A DNA stretch of 11,571 bases. It comes from Spirochaeta sp. (GTDB lineage Bacteria; Spirochaetota; Spirochaetia; DSM-2461). Under the pieces are notes generated by a model. It had not been told where the DNA came from, searched no databases, and saw only the letters and a program-made list of their open reading frames with translations. A program made the translations under genes and the position numbers. Each line of letters begins with the position of its first letter. Position 1 is the stretch's first letter. Positions 6,892-11,571 of this stretch are shown piece after piece. The stretch lies in contig JAUVIY010000055.1 of NCBI GenBank assembly GCA_030592625.1, positions 1-11,571 of the forward strand, read 5' to 3'.

Positions 6892-7401
6892 TTAATCTCC
6901 TGAGGTTTCTTCCTGATGGGCCAGGGCATCCTGAAGATCCAGGGCTGATACGGCACTGTCCATCAGGGCGGCACGGAACACCCGGGGAGAAGATCCCTCG
7001 GGAATCCGGGTGACATAAACGAGTACACGGCGTCCGTCGGATGTCATACCGGCCAGAGCCCAGGATCCGAATTTACGGGAAGACCATGTATCTCCCAGTA
7101 GATTTTCAGCGAGTTCTTCCGGCAGATCTCCCGGAATCCGGGCCGCCACCGACCAGATTTCACGCACCCGGACATTGTCGTCAAGAAAAGTGGTGTGGAG
7201 GCTCACTCCTACAGAGGTCTCCCGACCGTCAGGGAGTTCCACCTTCACCCTGTAGTCACCTTCGAAATCTACGGTGTACTCGAGTTTCAGTTTTTTAAGT
7301 ATCCGTTCCACCGGCTTATTGGCCTGGCAGGACATGACGGCGACAGCGAGAATCAGGACGGCGGGAACTGCTAAATGATATGGGTTCCGGTGAAGCATCA
7401 T
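6892..7401 (-). CDS. Putative lipoprotein, possibly YbjN-like fold, upstream of xseAB
   Basis: The frame can extend to 7491, but the chosen ATG at 7401 (or the adjacent one at 7398) gives a standard lipoprotein signal: a short basic start, the hydrophobic stretch AVPAVLILAVAV and a lipobox ending VMSC, putting Cys at residue 25. The longer version would overlap the divergent spiro-SPASM gene and add a second hydrophobic stretch. The mature part of about 145 residues has a beta-rich then helical layout: LEYTVDFEGDYRVKVEL, a strand with VREIWSVAARI, then GSWAL, RVLVYVTRI and a helical end. This order of strands and helices is reminiscent of YbjN or type III chaperone-like domains, a weak inference from pattern only. 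It is the first gene of the unit with xseA and xseB; no functional link to exonuclease VII is known to me. Confidence 0.75.
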   Translation of the reverse strand: MMLHRNPYHLAVPAVLILAVAVMSCQANKPVERILKKLKLEYTVDFEGDYRVKVELPDGRETSVGVSLHTTFLDDNVRVREIWSVAARIPGDLPEELAENLLGDTWSSRKFGSWALAGMTSDGRRVLVYVTRIPEGSSPRVFRAALMDSAVSALDLQDALAHQEETSGD

Positions 7402-7408
7402 CAGGTTT

Positions 7409-7437
7409 AATATGTAAGGGAGCATCGGCGGGGTCAA
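7409..7437 (-). promoter_or_regulatory. Candidate sigma-70 promoter for the lipoprotein-xseAB unit
   Basis: On the minus strand a TTGACC -35 box (7432-7437, five of six matches to TTGACA) is followed after exactly 17 bases by CATATT (7409-7414, four of six matches to TATAAT). Transcription would begin near 7402-7403, at or just before the ATG pair at 7401/7398, so the message would have almost no leader. No Shine-Dalgarno sequence precedes these ATGs, which fits that reading but could equally mean that the start or the promoter is misplaced. Confidence 0.35.
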
Positions 7438-7451
7438 GAAGCCGAGGCCGA

Positions 7452-7457
7452 AAAGGG
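7452..7457 (+). promoter_or_regulatory. Ribosome binding site deciding the spiro-SPASM start
   Basis: The AAAGGG here is 8 bases from ATG 7466 but only 2 bases from ATG 7460, so the second ATG is the better start. It gives a product two residues shorter. Confidence 0.55.
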
Positions 7458-7465
7458 AAATGAGC

Positions 7466-9040
7466 ATGAGAAACCTGGCTATTATCAACATCGCGGGGCT
7501 CTCGCCCCTGGCATATCAGAGGGTTTTCGGCGGTCCATCGGCTTTCGAGAGAGTCCTGGAATGGGGTTCCTCTATCCCTGAGGCTGCCGGCATCGTGTTC
7601 CTGGCCGGACCCGAAACACCGATTCCCGATGGGATGAGGGTGATACGCCGGGAGAAATGGACCGAAGAGGTGCTGATTGAAGCCCTGACCGCAGCATCCC
7701 GGCTGCCGGCAGGCGATAATCCTGATGAAAACAGGGCTGAAGCTCTGTTTTATGTCTGGGGCGATTCACCCCTGATGGATCCTGATGTCACCGCGACTCT
7801 CTGGAAACTTCACTACAAGTACGATGCCGAATACTGCTTCGCCGACGGATATCCCTACGGCCTCGCGCCGGAGATTATCTCTACGGTTCTGCCTGAGAAA
7901 CTCCAGGCTCTGGCGAAAAACCGAAATGCGCCGATGGCCCGGGACAGCATTTTCGAGGTGCTACGGCAGGATATCAACGCTTTCGATGTGGAAACCCATT
8001 TATCACCCAAAGACCTGAGAATGGACCGTGTCTCTATAACCTGCGACACCAGGCGAAATGTGAATATCGCCGAACGGCTATATGCTGCCGGCGGTATCGA
8101 TGCCGAAGCCCTCTGCCGTATCATTCCGGAGAAAAAGGAACTGCTCCGGGACCGGCCGGCTTTTTTTCCGATACAGATTACCGACCACTGCCCCCAGGCC
8201 TGTTCATACTGCCCCTTCCCGAAATCCGGTGACGATCCCCGCAGCGGCAAAAGGTTCATGGATGCCGGGTCTTTTGAAGCTCTCTGTGAAAAAATCGTTG
8301 ATTTTGCCGGAGATGCGGTGATAGGACTGTCCCTCTGGGGCGAACCGGCTTCCCACCCGGAGATCGGCGGGTTGATTCGAGCGGCACTGGCCGCCGGAAC
8401 TTCAGCGCAGGGGATATCAGGCCGTGGGACTGCTGTTGAGGCTCCCCCTCTTACCAGAATCCTTATCGAAACTTCAGGGATAGGCTGGGATGCCGGTCTG
8501 TTGGAGGAACTGGCGGCCGAAACAGAAGAAGGCCGGCTGATGTGGATCGTCTCGCTGGACGCGGCCGATCCCGAGCTGTACCTCAGCCTCCGGGGTGAAG
8601 GTATGGATGAGGCTGAAAATACGGCCCGGCATCTGACGAAGCTCTTCGGTTCCTACTGTTGGCTGCAGGCCGTACGTATGGAAGAGAACGAGGAACATCT
8701 GGAAGATTTTTATAAGAAGTGGAATGAGGAAGGGGTTCAGGTCATTGTCCAGAAATACGATGCCTATGCTGCATTCCTGACCCAGAGGCAGCCTGCGGAT
8801 CTTTCGCCCCTGGAGCGCTTTCCCTGCTGGCACCTCAAAAGGGACATGCCGGTGCTGATTGACGGTACGGTACCGATTTGCCGGGACGATCTGGGTAGAA
8901 GGGATGCCCTGGGCAATGTATTCAAGGATGATTTGGAAACGATCTGGAACGCCGGCGATGCCCTGCACAGGAAGCAGGCCGCCGGCGATTATCCCGGACC
9001 CTGTGCGGACTGCGATGAGTATTACACATTCAATTTCTGA
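7466..9040 (+). CDS. Spiro-SPASM protein: nucleotidyltransferase-like N-terminus fused to radical SAM/SPASM
   Basis: The 524-residue product has two halves. Residues about 1-215 look like the cytidylyltransferase/GT-A fold: NLAIINIAGLS at the start, WGDSPL at 98-103 (compare GDNPL in SpsF/NeuA enzymes) and TCDTRRNVNIAERLY near 191, which matches the place of the LDxPxDY segment in that family. Residues about 235-524 are a radical SAM enzyme: C242xxxC246xxC249 (CPQACSYC) binds the SAM-cleaving 4Fe-4S cluster, SLWGEP follows at about 290, and a C-terminal SPASM domain has four cysteines, C454, C472 (after IDGTVP), C513 and C516, enough for an auxiliary cluster. The family is, to my knowledge, confined to spirochaetes and has no assigned reaction. 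It leads a four-gene unit for sugar activation and transfer, so a radical modification of a sugar or glycan carrier is a reasonable inference. An alternative start is ATG 7460. Confidence 0.9.
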   Translation: MRNLAIINIAGLSPLAYQRVFGGPSAFERVLEWGSSIPEAAGIVFLAGPETPIPDGMRVIRREKWTEEVLIEALTAASRLPAGDNPDENRAEALFYVWGDSPLMDPDVTATLWKLHYKYDAEYCFADGYPYGLAPEIISTVLPEKLQALAKNRNAPMARDSIFEVLRQDINAFDVETHLSPKDLRMDRVSITCDTRRNVNIAERLYAAGGIDAEALCRIIPEKKELLRDRPAFFPIQITDHCPQACSYCPFPKSGDDPRSGKRFMDAGSFEALCEKIVDFAGDAVIGLSLWGEPASHPEIGGLIRAALAAGTSAQGISGRGTAVEAPPLTRILIETSGIGWDAGLLEELAAETEEGRLMWIVSLDAADPELYLSLRGEGMDEAENTARHLTKLFGSYCWLQAVRMEENEEHLEDFYKKWNEEGVQVIVQKYDAYAAFLTQRQPADLSPLERFPCWHLKRDMPVLIDGTVPICRDDLGRRDALGNVFKDDLETIWNAGDALHRKQAAGDYPGPCADCDEYYTFNF

Positions 9041-9992
9041 TCGGACCGTCCAGGATGCCGGATCCTACACGGTCGTCGGCGGAGATATCCTGGACAGGGA
9101 GCTCAAAGACCGTCCGGGACTTTCCATCGTTCTTCTGGGCAGAGGAGCCAGGGTGTTCCGTCGTAACCTTTTCGAGGAACTCTGCAAGCTCGGTGCCCGG
9201 GAAGTTCTGTCCATTGAATCCGGCCCCTGCCCCTATGATGTGGAATCCCTCACAAAAGTACATGATAAACTCCGTTTCCTCATATTCGCAGAGGAATCAA
9301 ATACAGGCGCCCGTATCGATGCGGCGGTAAGAGAAGCCTTAAGCGATCATGTCTTCGTCCTTCATGGAGATATGAAAATCAATTCCGCCGGAATCTCCTC
9401 CCGGGTGTTCTCAAAAATTTCCGAACGCGGACGTCTCTGTACGGTCCCTGTCTTCAAGGATGCCGAAGGTGAACTCCTTCCTACGGCTCTCGGGCCCATG
9501 CCCGGCCGGGGGGGGGCTTTCGACATCCAGCCCAGAGCCGCCGCCGACGGTGAAGTGCCCACCCTGGTTCCCTGGGACTATACCGGCATCTACAGGAAGG
9601 ACAAGCATCTGGCCCTTGGCGGGTTTGATTCCCTGATTTCCGAGCCCTGGTGGCAGAAACTCGATTACGGTATGCGGGCCTGGCTCTGGGGGGAAGAGAT
9701 ACGGACCCATTCGGCACTGAGGGTTGGGTATCTGAATGAAATACTCCCTGAGGATTCGACACCGGGCCCCGGTTATCGGCGCTTTTTTCTGAAAAATCTG
9801 GCCGTCAGGAAACGGGGTGATACCGGGCGGCTTCCGAGGTCGCGTTGGTGGTTTTATATGCGTTCTTCCGGTGAATCGGCGGGGGCCACCAGGGAAATCT
9901 GGCTGGAAATCCGGGCATGGGTGAGTGCCAACCGCTATCGTTTTATCAGGGATGCCGCAGAACTCACCGAACTCTGGGACTGGGGTGAATAG
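9015..9992 (+). CDS. GT2-like (GT-A fold) glycosyltransferase
   Basis: The frame is open further upstream, but the ATG at 9015 (325 residues) is chosen because the upstream extension only shadows the SPASM domain; the start still overlaps the previous gene by 26 bases. After an N-terminal region with a conserved-looking beta strand (LSIVLLGRGARV), the protein shows VFVLHGDMKI with GD at 118-119, where GT-A enzymes carry the metal-binding acidic residues. A typical GT2 acceptor/closing segment follows: GGFDSL at 202 and EPWWQKLDYGMRAWLWGEE, ending at about 228. There is no membrane segment. It probably transfers or handles a nucleotide-activated sugar in the same pathway as its neighbours; donor and acceptor are unknown. 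A run of nine G (9508-9516) encodes R165-G-G-A168, so loss or gain of one G would shift the frame. The canonical DxD is not clear, so a degenerate or nucleotidyltransferase role is possible. Confidence 0.78.
   Translation: MSITHSISDRTVQDAGSYTVVGGDILDRELKDRPGLSIVLLGRGARVFRRNLFEELCKLGAREVLSIESGPCPYDVESLTKVHDKLRFLIFAEESNTGARIDAAVREALSDHVFVLHGDMKINSAGISSRVFSKISERGRLCTVPVFKDAEGELLPTALGPMPGRGGAFDIQPRAAADGEVPTLVPWDYTGIYRKDKHLALGGFDSLISEPWWQKLDYGMRAWLWGEEIRTHSALRVGYLNEILPEDSTPGPGYRRFFLKNLAVRKRGDTGRLPRSRWWFYMRSSGESAGATREIWLEIRAWVSANRYRFIRDAAELTELWDWGE
9508..9516 (+). repeat. G9 homopolymer inside the glycosyltransferase gene
   Basis: Nine consecutive G residues within the coding frame, read here as CGG GGG GGG G. 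Tracts of this length are prone to slipped-strand mispairing, which is the mechanism of on/off switching in several bacterial glycan genes. In this sequence the gene is in the 'on' frame. Confidence 0.9.
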
Positions 9993-10674
9993 TTTGACCT
10001 CGGTATTCCTCCAGGTGCGTCTCGATTCATCCCGGCTGCCCCGGAAGGCTCTGCTGAAACTGGCGGATCTCACGGTTGTGGAGCATGCCATGCGGGCCCT
10101 GAATTCTGTTGAGGCCGATCGCCGCATGCTTCTGACCACCCGGGACTCGGAAGCCGAGCTCCGTCCTCTGGCCGAAGAATCAGGCTGGGGATTGTTTGTC
10201 GGTTCCAAGAACGATGTCCTGGCCCGATATGTTCTGGCGGCCAGAGAGGTGGGAGCGGACAGGATTGTGAGGGCTACCGGGGACAATCCCCTGGTATCGG
10301 CCATCATGGCCAATGCGGCCTTAAGACTGTTTAATGATACCGGCGCCTCTTATGCCGGATTCAGTGAGCTCCCGCTGGGTGCCGGCGTGGAAATCGTCGA
10401 TGTGACTTCCCTGGAGGAAGCCTTTGAGGAAGCTACCGATACCTACGAGCGGGAGCATGTATCACCTTTTCTTTACCACAGGCCCGAACGCTATCGCATC
10501 GAGGTTCACCGGGCTCCCGATGGTTTCCGGGCTCCAGATACACGGATTACCCTGGACAATCCTGCGGATTATGCCTTTCTCAGACACTTGTACAAAGATC
10601 TGTACACCGGAGATCCACTGGATCTGGACGTCGTTGTTCCTTATCTGATGAAGGGGACGGCGAATGCCGGCTGA
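9985..10674 (+). CDS. SpsF/NeuA-like cytidylyltransferase
   Basis: Starting at GTG 9985 the product has 229 residues and overlaps the glycosyltransferase stop by 8 bases; TTG 9994, preceded by GGGGTGA, is the alternative start. The frame extends to an ATG at 9925, but that part is a shadow of the previous gene. Family signatures: QVRLDSSRLPRKAL (10-23), the nucleotide-binding loop of CMP-sugar synthetases (compare ARxxSxRLPxK); GSKNDVLARY (73-82); RATGDNPL (96-103), with the metal-coordinating Asp; EHVSPFLYHRPE; and ITLDNPADYAFL near 190. SpsF/NeuA-type proteins join CMP to an acidic sugar such as a nonulosonic acid. The exact sugar cannot be told from sequence; some SpsF-like proteins are known only by similarity. 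Cytoplasmic, no membrane segment. Position between a glycosyltransferase and a PseG-like protein supports sugar activation. Confidence 0.88.
   Translation: MNSLTSVFLQVRLDSSRLPRKALLKLADLTVVEHAMRALNSVEADRRMLLTTRDSEAELRPLAEESGWGLFVGSKNDVLARYVLAAREVGADRIVRATGDNPLVSAIMANAALRLFNDTGASYAGFSELPLGAGVEIVDVTSLEEAFEEATDTYEREHVSPFLYHRPERYRIEVHRAPDGFRAPDTRITLDNPADYAFLRHLYKDLYTGDPLDLDVVVPYLMKGTANAG
10651..10657 (+). promoter_or_regulatory. Ribosome binding site of the PseG-like gene
   Basis: AAGGGGA lies 6 bases before ATG 10664, inside the end of the cytidylyltransferase gene. It fixes the start of the last gene and shows that it is translated as part of the same message. Confidence 0.7.
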
Positions 10675-11571
10675 ACGGTTTTTCTTTCTTCCCTTGAGCC
10701 GCCGAACTATGGGTTCCGGACACATGAGGCGCTGTTTCGATATCGCCCGGTGTCTTCCGGGCCGCTCGGCCATTCTCATCGATGATACTCCATCAGATAC
10801 CAGATTTCCCGATGAATGGGCGGAAATCATACCGGGCTTTCCCGGGGCCGTACCTGTTTTGCTGACCTCCGAAGCCCTCAGTGGTGATACTCAGCCCGAT
10901 ACCCTGACGGTTTTCGACCGTCGCAGCAGTGAAAAGGCGGATCTGATTCCCTGGACGTATAAAACTACCCCGGTTCTGTTGGACGACAACGGTCCGGCCC
11001 GGCATCTGGCCCCCTTCCTGCTGGATACCATTCCCGGCCCCAGGGTCAGTGAGGCCAACGAGGCCTCACCGTCCTGGTTGAATCTGCCGCCTCGCCGCCG
11101 CAGCCCGGATTCCGCAGGGCCCATCCTGGTGAGTTTCGGCGGGGATGATCCTTCGGGTCTCACTATTCCCCTGATTACCGCCCTGGTGAACCGGATCGGG
11201 ATGGATTCCCGACGGATCAGCGTCACCCTGCCGGCGGGAACCTCCCAGGAGACCCTTCCCGAAGGGGTGAGGGTCCTCAAAATTCCTGACGGTCTGAAAG
11301 ACCACCTTGCAGATTACGGACTGGTTATCTGCTCTTATGGTCTGACCGCCTGGGAAGCCGTCGCCGCCGGATGCGGGGTCCTGACGGCGGATCCTACGGA
11401 TTATCACGCCCGGCTGTCCCGTGAAGCCGGATTCCCCGGGATCGGCCTGGTGAAACTTGAGTTCCGGAGGTCAGTTCCCCGAATCCCCCCGATACCGGGG
11501 AGAAAACTCAAAGTTCTGAAACGCCTGCTGAACTCGCCTGAAAACCTGATTGGTGCCACCGAAAAACTCTC
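10664..11571 (+). CDS. PseG-like GT-B protein (3' end outside window)
   Basis: The frame is open from ATG 10664 to the right edge (302 complete codons) and overlaps the cytidylyltransferase stop by 11 bases. The N-terminus reads RRTMGSGHMRRCFDIARCL (13-31), which carries the GxGHxxRC signature of PseG, the UDP-sugar hydrolase of the pseudaminic acid pathway, whose His in this motif is the proposed catalytic base. The second half starts with ILVSFGGDDPSGLT (near 153), followed by a beta-alpha Rossmann pattern and LVICSYGLTAWEAVAAGCGVL (near 222), which corresponds to the UDP-binding end of PseG and related GT-B enzymes (compare GGxTxxEAxxxGxP). It may hydrolyse a UDP-sugar or be a glycosyltransferase that kept the fold; the neighbours favour nonulosonate-type chemistry. 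No typical pseB, pseC or pseI partner is visible, so pseG itself is not assigned. Confidence 0.8.
   Translation, partial: MPAERFFFLPLSRRTMGSGHMRRCFDIARCLPGRSAILIDDTPSDTRFPDEWAEIIPGFPGAVPVLLTSEALSGDTQPDTLTVFDRRSSEKADLIPWTYKTTPVLLDDNGPARHLAPFLLDTIPGPRVSEANEASPSWLNLPPRRRSPDSAGPILVSFGGDDPSGLTIPLITALVNRIGMDSRRISVTLPAGTSQETLPEGVRVLKIPDGLKDHLADYGLVICSYGLTAWEAVAAGCGVLTADPTDYHARLSREAGFPGIGLVKLEFRRSVPRIPPIPGRKLKVLKRLLNSPENLIGATEKL

Follow-up and report, generated by a model that had tools for sequence, protein, structure and literature searches.

Three of four overlapping spirochaete genes probably belong to nonulosonate glycosylation of the periplasmic flagellin

Four overlapping genes and the operon that they begin

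The stretch of DNA analyzed here (the window, 11571 bp) is one whole contig (G000:C33) of a 2.84-Mb draft genome of Spirochaeta sp. that is 73% complete. Its distal part carries four + strand genes for a spiroSPASM protein, a GT2-like protein, an SpsF-type cytidylyltransferase and a PseG-like protein, and we asked what these genes might do together. Re-reading of the open reading frames (ORFs) bore out the preliminary description of this DNA, which had the four genes overlapping by 26, 8 and 11 bases. The spiroSPASM ORF starts at an ATG at 7460, and the ATG given earlier, at 7466, lies in the same frame. The features are as follows (aa, amino acids; CMP, cytidine monophosphate).

7460..9040, + strand: spiroSPASM gene, 526 aa; TIGR04321 at 513.9 bits, Pfam Radical_SAM and SPASM
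8189..8212, + strand: radical-SAM CX3CX2C motif of spiroSPASM (C244, C248, C251), intact
8825..9037, + strand: SPASM region (C456, C474, C515, C518) and conserved C-terminus EYYTFNF
9015..9992, + strand: GT2-like gene, 325 aa, ATG start; predicted GT-A fold, closest to polypeptide GalNAc-transferases
9985..10674, + strand: SpsF-type cytidylyltransferase, 229 aa, GTG start, proposed CMP-nonulosonate synthetase; PF02348 at 77 bits
10664..11571, + strand: N-terminal part of the PseG-like gene, ATG start, running off the contig end; methyltransferase-fused in relatives
6892..7491, - strand: divergent conserved gene (cluster c23), in 6 loci, with matches in L135 and L166
5669..6886, - strand: xseA, conserved upstream neighbor; TIGR00237 at 422 bits, cluster c7 in 29 loci

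The PseG-like gene is incomplete because its ORF leaves the window, which is an entire contig; 302 aa are encoded here, versus 578-770 aa in 21 aligned relatives. The gene order in relatives is spiroSPASM, GT2-like, SpsF-like, a fusion of the PseG-like protein to a methyltransferase (PseG-MT), an ATP-grasp ligase, an amidase, Germane and flaA. Linkage was sampled in 80 named loci, the best-scoring relatives of the window query and a sample biased to near kin, and counted in the 48 of these with more than 8 kb of sequence downstream. Among the 48, the GT2-like gene was found as a neighbor in 47, the PseG-like gene in 43, the SpsF-like gene in 42, the ATP-grasp ligase and flaA in 41 each and the amidase in 39, and several of the misses are gene-calling artefacts, such as fusions or the picking of an ORF on the opposite strand. 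Because the linkage of the four genes recurs in most of these loci, it is not due to chance. We conclude that a longer spirochaetal operon, with flaA, the sheath gene, as its downstream member, has its 5′ end in the window, and that the conserved unit is not confined to four genes as first described.

The labels that we use for groups and genomes, Borrelia-like (family f5), Treponema-like (f3), Brachyspira-like (f18), T. denticola-like (G165) and T. pallidum-like (G056), are our own presumptions, as are the labels CheW, CheX, CheY, serS, murI and SurA, given to unlabeled ORFs from their look. Outside the window's class, the order spiroSPASM, SpsF, PseG-MT, amidase, Germane and FlaA is found in L143, L144, L145 and L205, and SpsF, PseG and methyltransferase form a single protein in the Treponema-like loci L133 and L134 and in L140, L144 and L145. 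An SpsF-like gene lies at most two genes from spiroSPASM in 24 of 40 further loci outside the class. Co-occurrence across spirochaetes, by which the pathway first proposed could be checked, thus holds for the spiroSPASM, SpsF-like and PseG-like proteins, which remain linked in several families beyond the class. Four loci from beyond the class (L181, L187, L188 and L199) have a stand-alone PseG-like gene encoding about 300 aa; upstream of spiroSPASM these loci carry what we take to be murI-like genes, and L181, L188 and L199 a presumably SurA-like gene.

On the other side of spiroSPASM, xseA and the small divergent gene recur in relatives, and the latter (c23) is also retained beside the Borrelia-like GT2-like gene in L135 and L166. 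The window opens with a SpoIIE-type phosphatase that has a HAMP domain (17-2368; PF07228 at 60.8 bits), relatives of which lie upstream in L035 and L037 (cluster c20).

Sugar genes, flagellin and the acceptor serines

The SpsF-like protein carries the CTP_transf_3 domain (PF02348), and its best solved relative in a profile search is the cytidylyltransferase 6oew (E 1.9e-36). It has a QxRxxSxRLPxK-type loop, which we take to be a mark of SpsF/NeuA-type synthetases, and residues Q10, R12, S15, R17, K21, R96, T98, D100 and N101 are invariant in 22 of 22 aligned rows. These features suggest that it is a CMP-nonulosonate synthetase, which we propose as its function. 'PseG-like' is a weak label, since the window protein scores 22.9 bits against TIGR03590 (PseG), far from the cut-off of 153.55 bits, and the L037 protein scores 20.7 bits. 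The fold matches of PseG-MT are filled by the methyltransferase half and include no PseG, so they are uninformative for the PseG half; the methyltransferase domain is of the sugar C-methyltransferase kind.

The preliminary description had pointed to a NeuB-type synthase and flagellin as genes to be sought. Both are present in the window genome, and flaA lies downstream in relatives. The single NeuB-type protein (G000:C282, E 6.5e-61) scores below both equivalog cut-offs, with 227 of 399.65 bits for NeuB_NnaB and 199.4 of 340.25 bits for PseI, and for this reason we leave the exact nonulosonic acid unnamed. In genome G185, a NeuB gene stands convergent at the end of a flaA-cheA operon (L160, 7883-8992), and the three ORFs between cheA and NeuB presumably correspond to cheW, cheX and cheY. 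The T. denticola-like genome has a gene of 137 aa with a weak J-domain match after its NeuB gene (L153, 9660-10073), and a similar protein start occurs beside NeuB in L155.

Profiles of each family were run over the same 198 Spirochaetota genomes and 14 control genomes, with E up to 1e-3 counted as a match and a cut-off of 250 bits for TIGR04321. We found spiroSPASM matches in 188 of the 198 genomes (170 over the cut-off), PseG-MT in 189, NeuB in 189, ATP-grasp in 191, PF01973 in 190 and flagellin in 197; the window genome has 1 NeuB, 4 PF01973 and 5 flagellin matches. PF01973 is named MptE-like by the search tool, and we take it to be the flagellin transferase Maf. The eight genomes that lack PF01973 are the seven Borrelia-like genomes and G149, the sole genome of the 198 without flagellin, and all eight are also without spiroSPASM and PseG-MT matches. 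NeuB and ATP-grasp are likewise absent from the seven Borrelia-like genomes, and G149 has only weak matches to them (1.6e-7, 1.5e-8). Co-absence with PF01973 gives a Fisher p of 8.9e-13, a value that ignores descent and is not to be taken at face value; the counts overstate independence because they reflect about two independent losses, in the Borrelia-like family and in genus g13. The latter is part of family f9, the family of G149 (11 genomes), in which all seven g13 genomes are without flagellin, spiroSPASM over the cut-off and PseG-MT (two have 25-bit spiroSPASM matches), whereas all four genomes of genus g105 have flagellin, spiroSPASM over the cut-off and some PseG-MT match, that of G206 being 98 bits and in the methyltransferase half only.

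Parts of one report (PMC7431986) give VEVSQL and DRIAS as the glycosylation targets of T. denticola FlaB and describe both serines as substituted in B. burgdorferi. We aligned 44 FlaB proteins, having dropped two of 40 loci (L220 of the window genome and L232) that gave no reading frame under the start pattern used. Both FlaB proteins of the window genome in the alignment, out of its five flagellin matches, have Ser at the two sites. Among the 37 proteins from 31 loci outside the Borrelia-like family, Ser occupies both sites in 30 and at least one site in 36; the seven Borrelia-like proteins (loci L212-L218 inclusive) all have Glu and Asp at these sites, with Ser in 0 of 7. Acidic residues at these positions may be a general state of flagellins and not compensation.

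An alternative is that the nonulosonic acid is destined for the envelope, as part of a surface glycan, a lipoprotein or a peptidoglycan-linked polymer, and that linkage to flaA is merely inherited operon structure shared with the amidase and Germane genes. These two genes, taken as envelope genes, do lie between the sugar genes and flaA, and they stay together with the GT2-like gene in the flagellin-less G149. We nevertheless consider an envelope destination unlikely: within one family the sugar genes are gone where flagellin is gone (7/7 versus 0/4), their absence coincides with that of PF01973 in 8 of 8 genomes, and the Borrelia-like genomes without them are also without both FlaB acceptor serines (7/7).

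There are precedents in other spirochaetes. As described in parts of the respective publications, the flagella of T. denticola depend on PseI (TDE0960), according to a review (PMC9862357), and a 450.2-Da FlaB glycan is essential for filament assembly in this species (PMC9481697). In Leptospira, putative FlaB1 glycans are placed at the core-sheath interface and reported, in the portion of the source drawn on here, to mediate sheath binding (PMC13144727). Such a location would help to explain why flaA is found in a sugar operon, and an operon that joins glycan synthesis to the sheath protein fits this report.

spiroSPASM and the GT2-like protein

The spiroSPASM protein consists of an SpsF-like nucleotidyltransferase fold (about residues 9-226) without the nucleoside triphosphate (NTP) loop, a radical SAM core and a SPASM domain. 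The N-terminal part aligns with the SpsF alignment at an hhalign probability of 96 (E 3.9e-9, 210 columns). SpsF residues R17 and K21 correspond to spiroSPASM positions 13 and 17, where 33 rows have mostly Gly/Asn/Ser and Tyr/Phe; the same rows all share D102, D129 and G134, and 32 of the 33 have P104. The SpsF-like domain is apparently dead.

In the window protein the radical core is recognizable (PF04055 at 49.2 bits), its motif CPQACSYC is intact, and the nearest solved chain is BtrN (E 4.6e-11). The motif was scored from aligned columns for the family tally and by a motif search near those columns for a tree set of 98 homologues. In the tree set, CX3CX2C is present in 53 and missing in 45, and it is absent from all 14 Treponema-like and all 12 Brachyspira-like sequences examined. 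Of the 80 named loci, 75 have the intact motif, 3 lack it and 2 retain part of it; L032, L033 and L037, close relatives of the window, are among these five. The motif state changes at least 14 times, the fewest possible, on a quick tree in which 33 of 95 inner branches are weakly supported, and we infer that the changes are losses. The four SPASM cysteines are retained in 173 of 175 loci scanned, with some genomes counted twice. Taken together, these patterns suggest that spiroSPASM is a radical-SAM family that has repeatedly lost its radical cluster motif while keeping the SPASM cysteines. With 45 of 98 homologues lacking CX3CX2C, the 14 of 14 Treponema-like sequences included, radical chemistry is unlikely to be the constant function of the family, and radical modification of the sugar, which the preliminary description had offered as one possibility, was rejected as its conserved role. 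A search of the open-licence literature found no paper assigning spiroSPASM to flagellar glycosylation.

The GT2-like protein has no Pfam or NCBIfam match, and one relative (P0001) has PF00535. Its predicted model adopts a GT-A fold closest to polypeptide GalNAc-transferases, making it a candidate protein O-glycosyltransferase. Matches occur in 55 of the 198 genomes. The protein scores strongly (at least 218 bits) in 39 of 39 genomes of the window's class, including the eight without sugar genes (the seven Borrelia-like genomes and G149); outside the class only 16 genomes give a match, none above 68 bits. The co-occurrence seen for its neighbors thus does not extend to the GT2-like protein, which is retained in genomes without the sugar genes. 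Its gene is evolutionarily separable from them, and the protein, earlier placed in the pathway as a working member, is probably not part of it. We also rejected it as the leading idea for the flagellin transferase, given its distribution and the fitting profile of PF01973, and found no match when comparing it with SpsF. The start codon of its gene (9015-9040) sits within the codons for the spiroSPASM C-terminus EYYTFNF, and the start position is nearly invariant in a 22-row alignment. In the Borrelia-like genome G076, the GT2-like, amidase, Germane and flaA genes are kept without the sugar genes (L135, 6604-10180).

These results bear on the reading in which all four genes form one pathway, where spiroSPASM alters the sugar by radical chemistry and the GT2-like protein links it to a protein. 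BtrN is a radical dehydrogenase, and its closeness to the radical core, together with the intact motif of the window, would suit such a role; so would the gene order conserved within the class, the constant position of the GT2-like start inside spiroSPASM and the predicted resemblance to polypeptide glycosyltransferases. We judge this reading quite improbable, however, in view of the motif losses, the presence of the GT2-like protein without sugar genes and its low scores outside the class. Additionally, the sps operon of B. subtilis encodes a putative glycosyltransferase, SpsA, which according to the part of that study used here does not serve as the transferase (PMC7439481).

A proposed pathway and its nearest known systems

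We propose, with a probability of roughly three in four, that the window is the start of an operon whose products make an activated nonulosonic acid with which FlaB, the periplasmic flagellin, is O-glycosylated; three of the four genes probably belong to this process, and the GT2-like gene probably does not. Gene order, co-occurrence, co-loss and motif states were observed directly in the genomes, the GT2-like fold was predicted by modeling, and the enzymatic steps, their order and the role of spiroSPASM are put forward conditionally. The PseG-like domain would release a precursor sugar from uridine diphosphate (UDP), for which B. subtilis SpsG is a precedent, and the NeuB-type synthase, encoded elsewhere, would form the nine-carbon acid from it. 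The PseG-fused methyltransferase and the ATP-grasp amide ligase would add methyl and acyl decoration, and the SpsF-type protein would convert the sugar to its CMP-activated form. Proteins of the Maf type (PF01973), also encoded elsewhere, would then transfer it to FlaB serines before export, after which FlaA from the same operon would dock on the glycosylated core. spiroSPASM, with its apparently dead SpsF-like domain and its radical-SAM/SPASM body, would be an accessory protein whose conserved role is independent of the cluster. The T. denticola glycan reportedly carries an N7 2-methoxy-4,5,6-trihydroxyhexanoyl group, whose methoxy substituent and amide-linked chain would call for a methyltransferase and an ATP-grasp ligase, respectively, a match that we suggest by analogy. 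Of the proposal made earlier for this locus, a nonulosonate-like sugar on flagellin, the activated sugar for flagellin is thus supported, and the radical modification, the part given to the GT2-like protein and the limit of four genes are not.

Several observations weigh against this proposal. The enzyme activities are predicted from sequence, nothing links spiroSPASM to a particular reaction, PseG membership is weak (22.9 bits), and the ATP-grasp and methyltransferase domains match broad families, so that weak matches in their profiles are unspecific. The phylogenetic profile is carried by about two independent losses. The presence of NeuB or PF01973 is not specific, because both match control genomes (NeuB in 9 of 14; PF01973 in 4, all archaea); flagellin matches 4 controls, and TIGR04321 gives sub-cut-off matches in 10 and none over the cut-off. 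Another 18 of the 198 genomes have sub-cut-off spiroSPASM matches alone, all with flagellin and PF01973; these genomes may lack spiroSPASM, and several are incomplete drafts. Two genomes, G109 and G164, have no spiroSPASM match and yet have PF01973 and flagellin, G164 also being without PseG-MT and weak for NeuB, and two others (G021, G024) have spiroSPASM and no NeuB; all four are incomplete drafts of 80-84%. Of the 40 further loci from beyond the class, 16 have no SpsF gene near spiroSPASM, though some of these 16 lie at a contig end. The flaA gene is not nearby in the Treponema-like loci L133 and L134 or in the Brachyspira-like loci L139, L171 and L172, the last three showing no linkage of these genes at all. 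Such broken linkage is what would be expected if the genes were unrelated neighbors, held together by chance or by a flagellar promoter. That explanation seems to us very hard to sustain, given the SpsF-PseG-MT fusions, the linkage in several outside families and the co-absence.

A more specific version of the glycosylation proposal is possible but doubtful. It holds that a line shared by nearly all flagellated spirochaetes, a single SpsF-PseG-methyltransferase polypeptide in some, builds an O-methylated, amide-extended FlaB nonulosonate, the ligase making the amide and the methyltransferase the methoxy group. spiroSPASM would now act without radical chemistry, as a partner binding either the CMP-sugar or the synthetase, and Borrelia, having lost the line, would have acidic acceptor sites. 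In either form, the proposal offers a function for TIGR04321, which exceeds its cut-off in 170 of the 198 Spirochaetota genomes, and identifies candidates for the genes that activate and decorate the flagellar glycan of spirochaetes. It also presents spiroSPASM as a possible case of repeated loss of the radical cluster motif with retention of the SPASM cysteines.

Among known families, the window protein is a member of the TIGR04321 spiro-SPASM family (513.9 bits), in which nearly half of the homologues examined (45/98) are without the radical-SAM cysteines. It shares a radical core and a SPASM domain with BtrN and other SPASM/twitch enzymes; unlike BtrN, it has an extra N-terminal SpsF-like domain and gives no sign of dehydrogenation. 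Flagellin glycosylation in Campylobacter and Helicobacter follows a similar logic of PseG, PseI, PseF and Maf-type proteins. Compared with that pseudaminic acid system, as far as it is set out in the part of PMC3438082 considered, PseG here is far below the equivalog cut-off, an SpsF-type protein replaces PseF, and there are spirochaete additions.

The B. subtilis sps operon provides a close parallel. SpsG, SpsE and SpsF, with SpsC and SpsD, act in a CMP-legionaminate pathway according to the part of PMC7439481 cited above, and both systems combine an SpsF-type cytidylyltransferase, a PseG-like protein (SpsG) and a NeuB-type synthase (SpsE) with an operon glycosyltransferase (there SpsA) that is not the nonulosonate transferase. 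The spirochaete operon departs from sps, as described there, in joining its PseG-like protein to a methyltransferase, in including an ATP-grasp ligase and spiroSPASM, in having the synthase encoded at another location, and in being tied to flaA and flagella, where sps is tied to the spore crust. In the T. denticola-like genome, too, the sugar genes of the operon do not adjoin the synthase gene. With T. denticola FlaB glycosylation, so far as the parts of the reports cited above describe it, the window genome has in common a synthase of the NeuB/PseI family and a flagellin acceptor with the same serine motifs.

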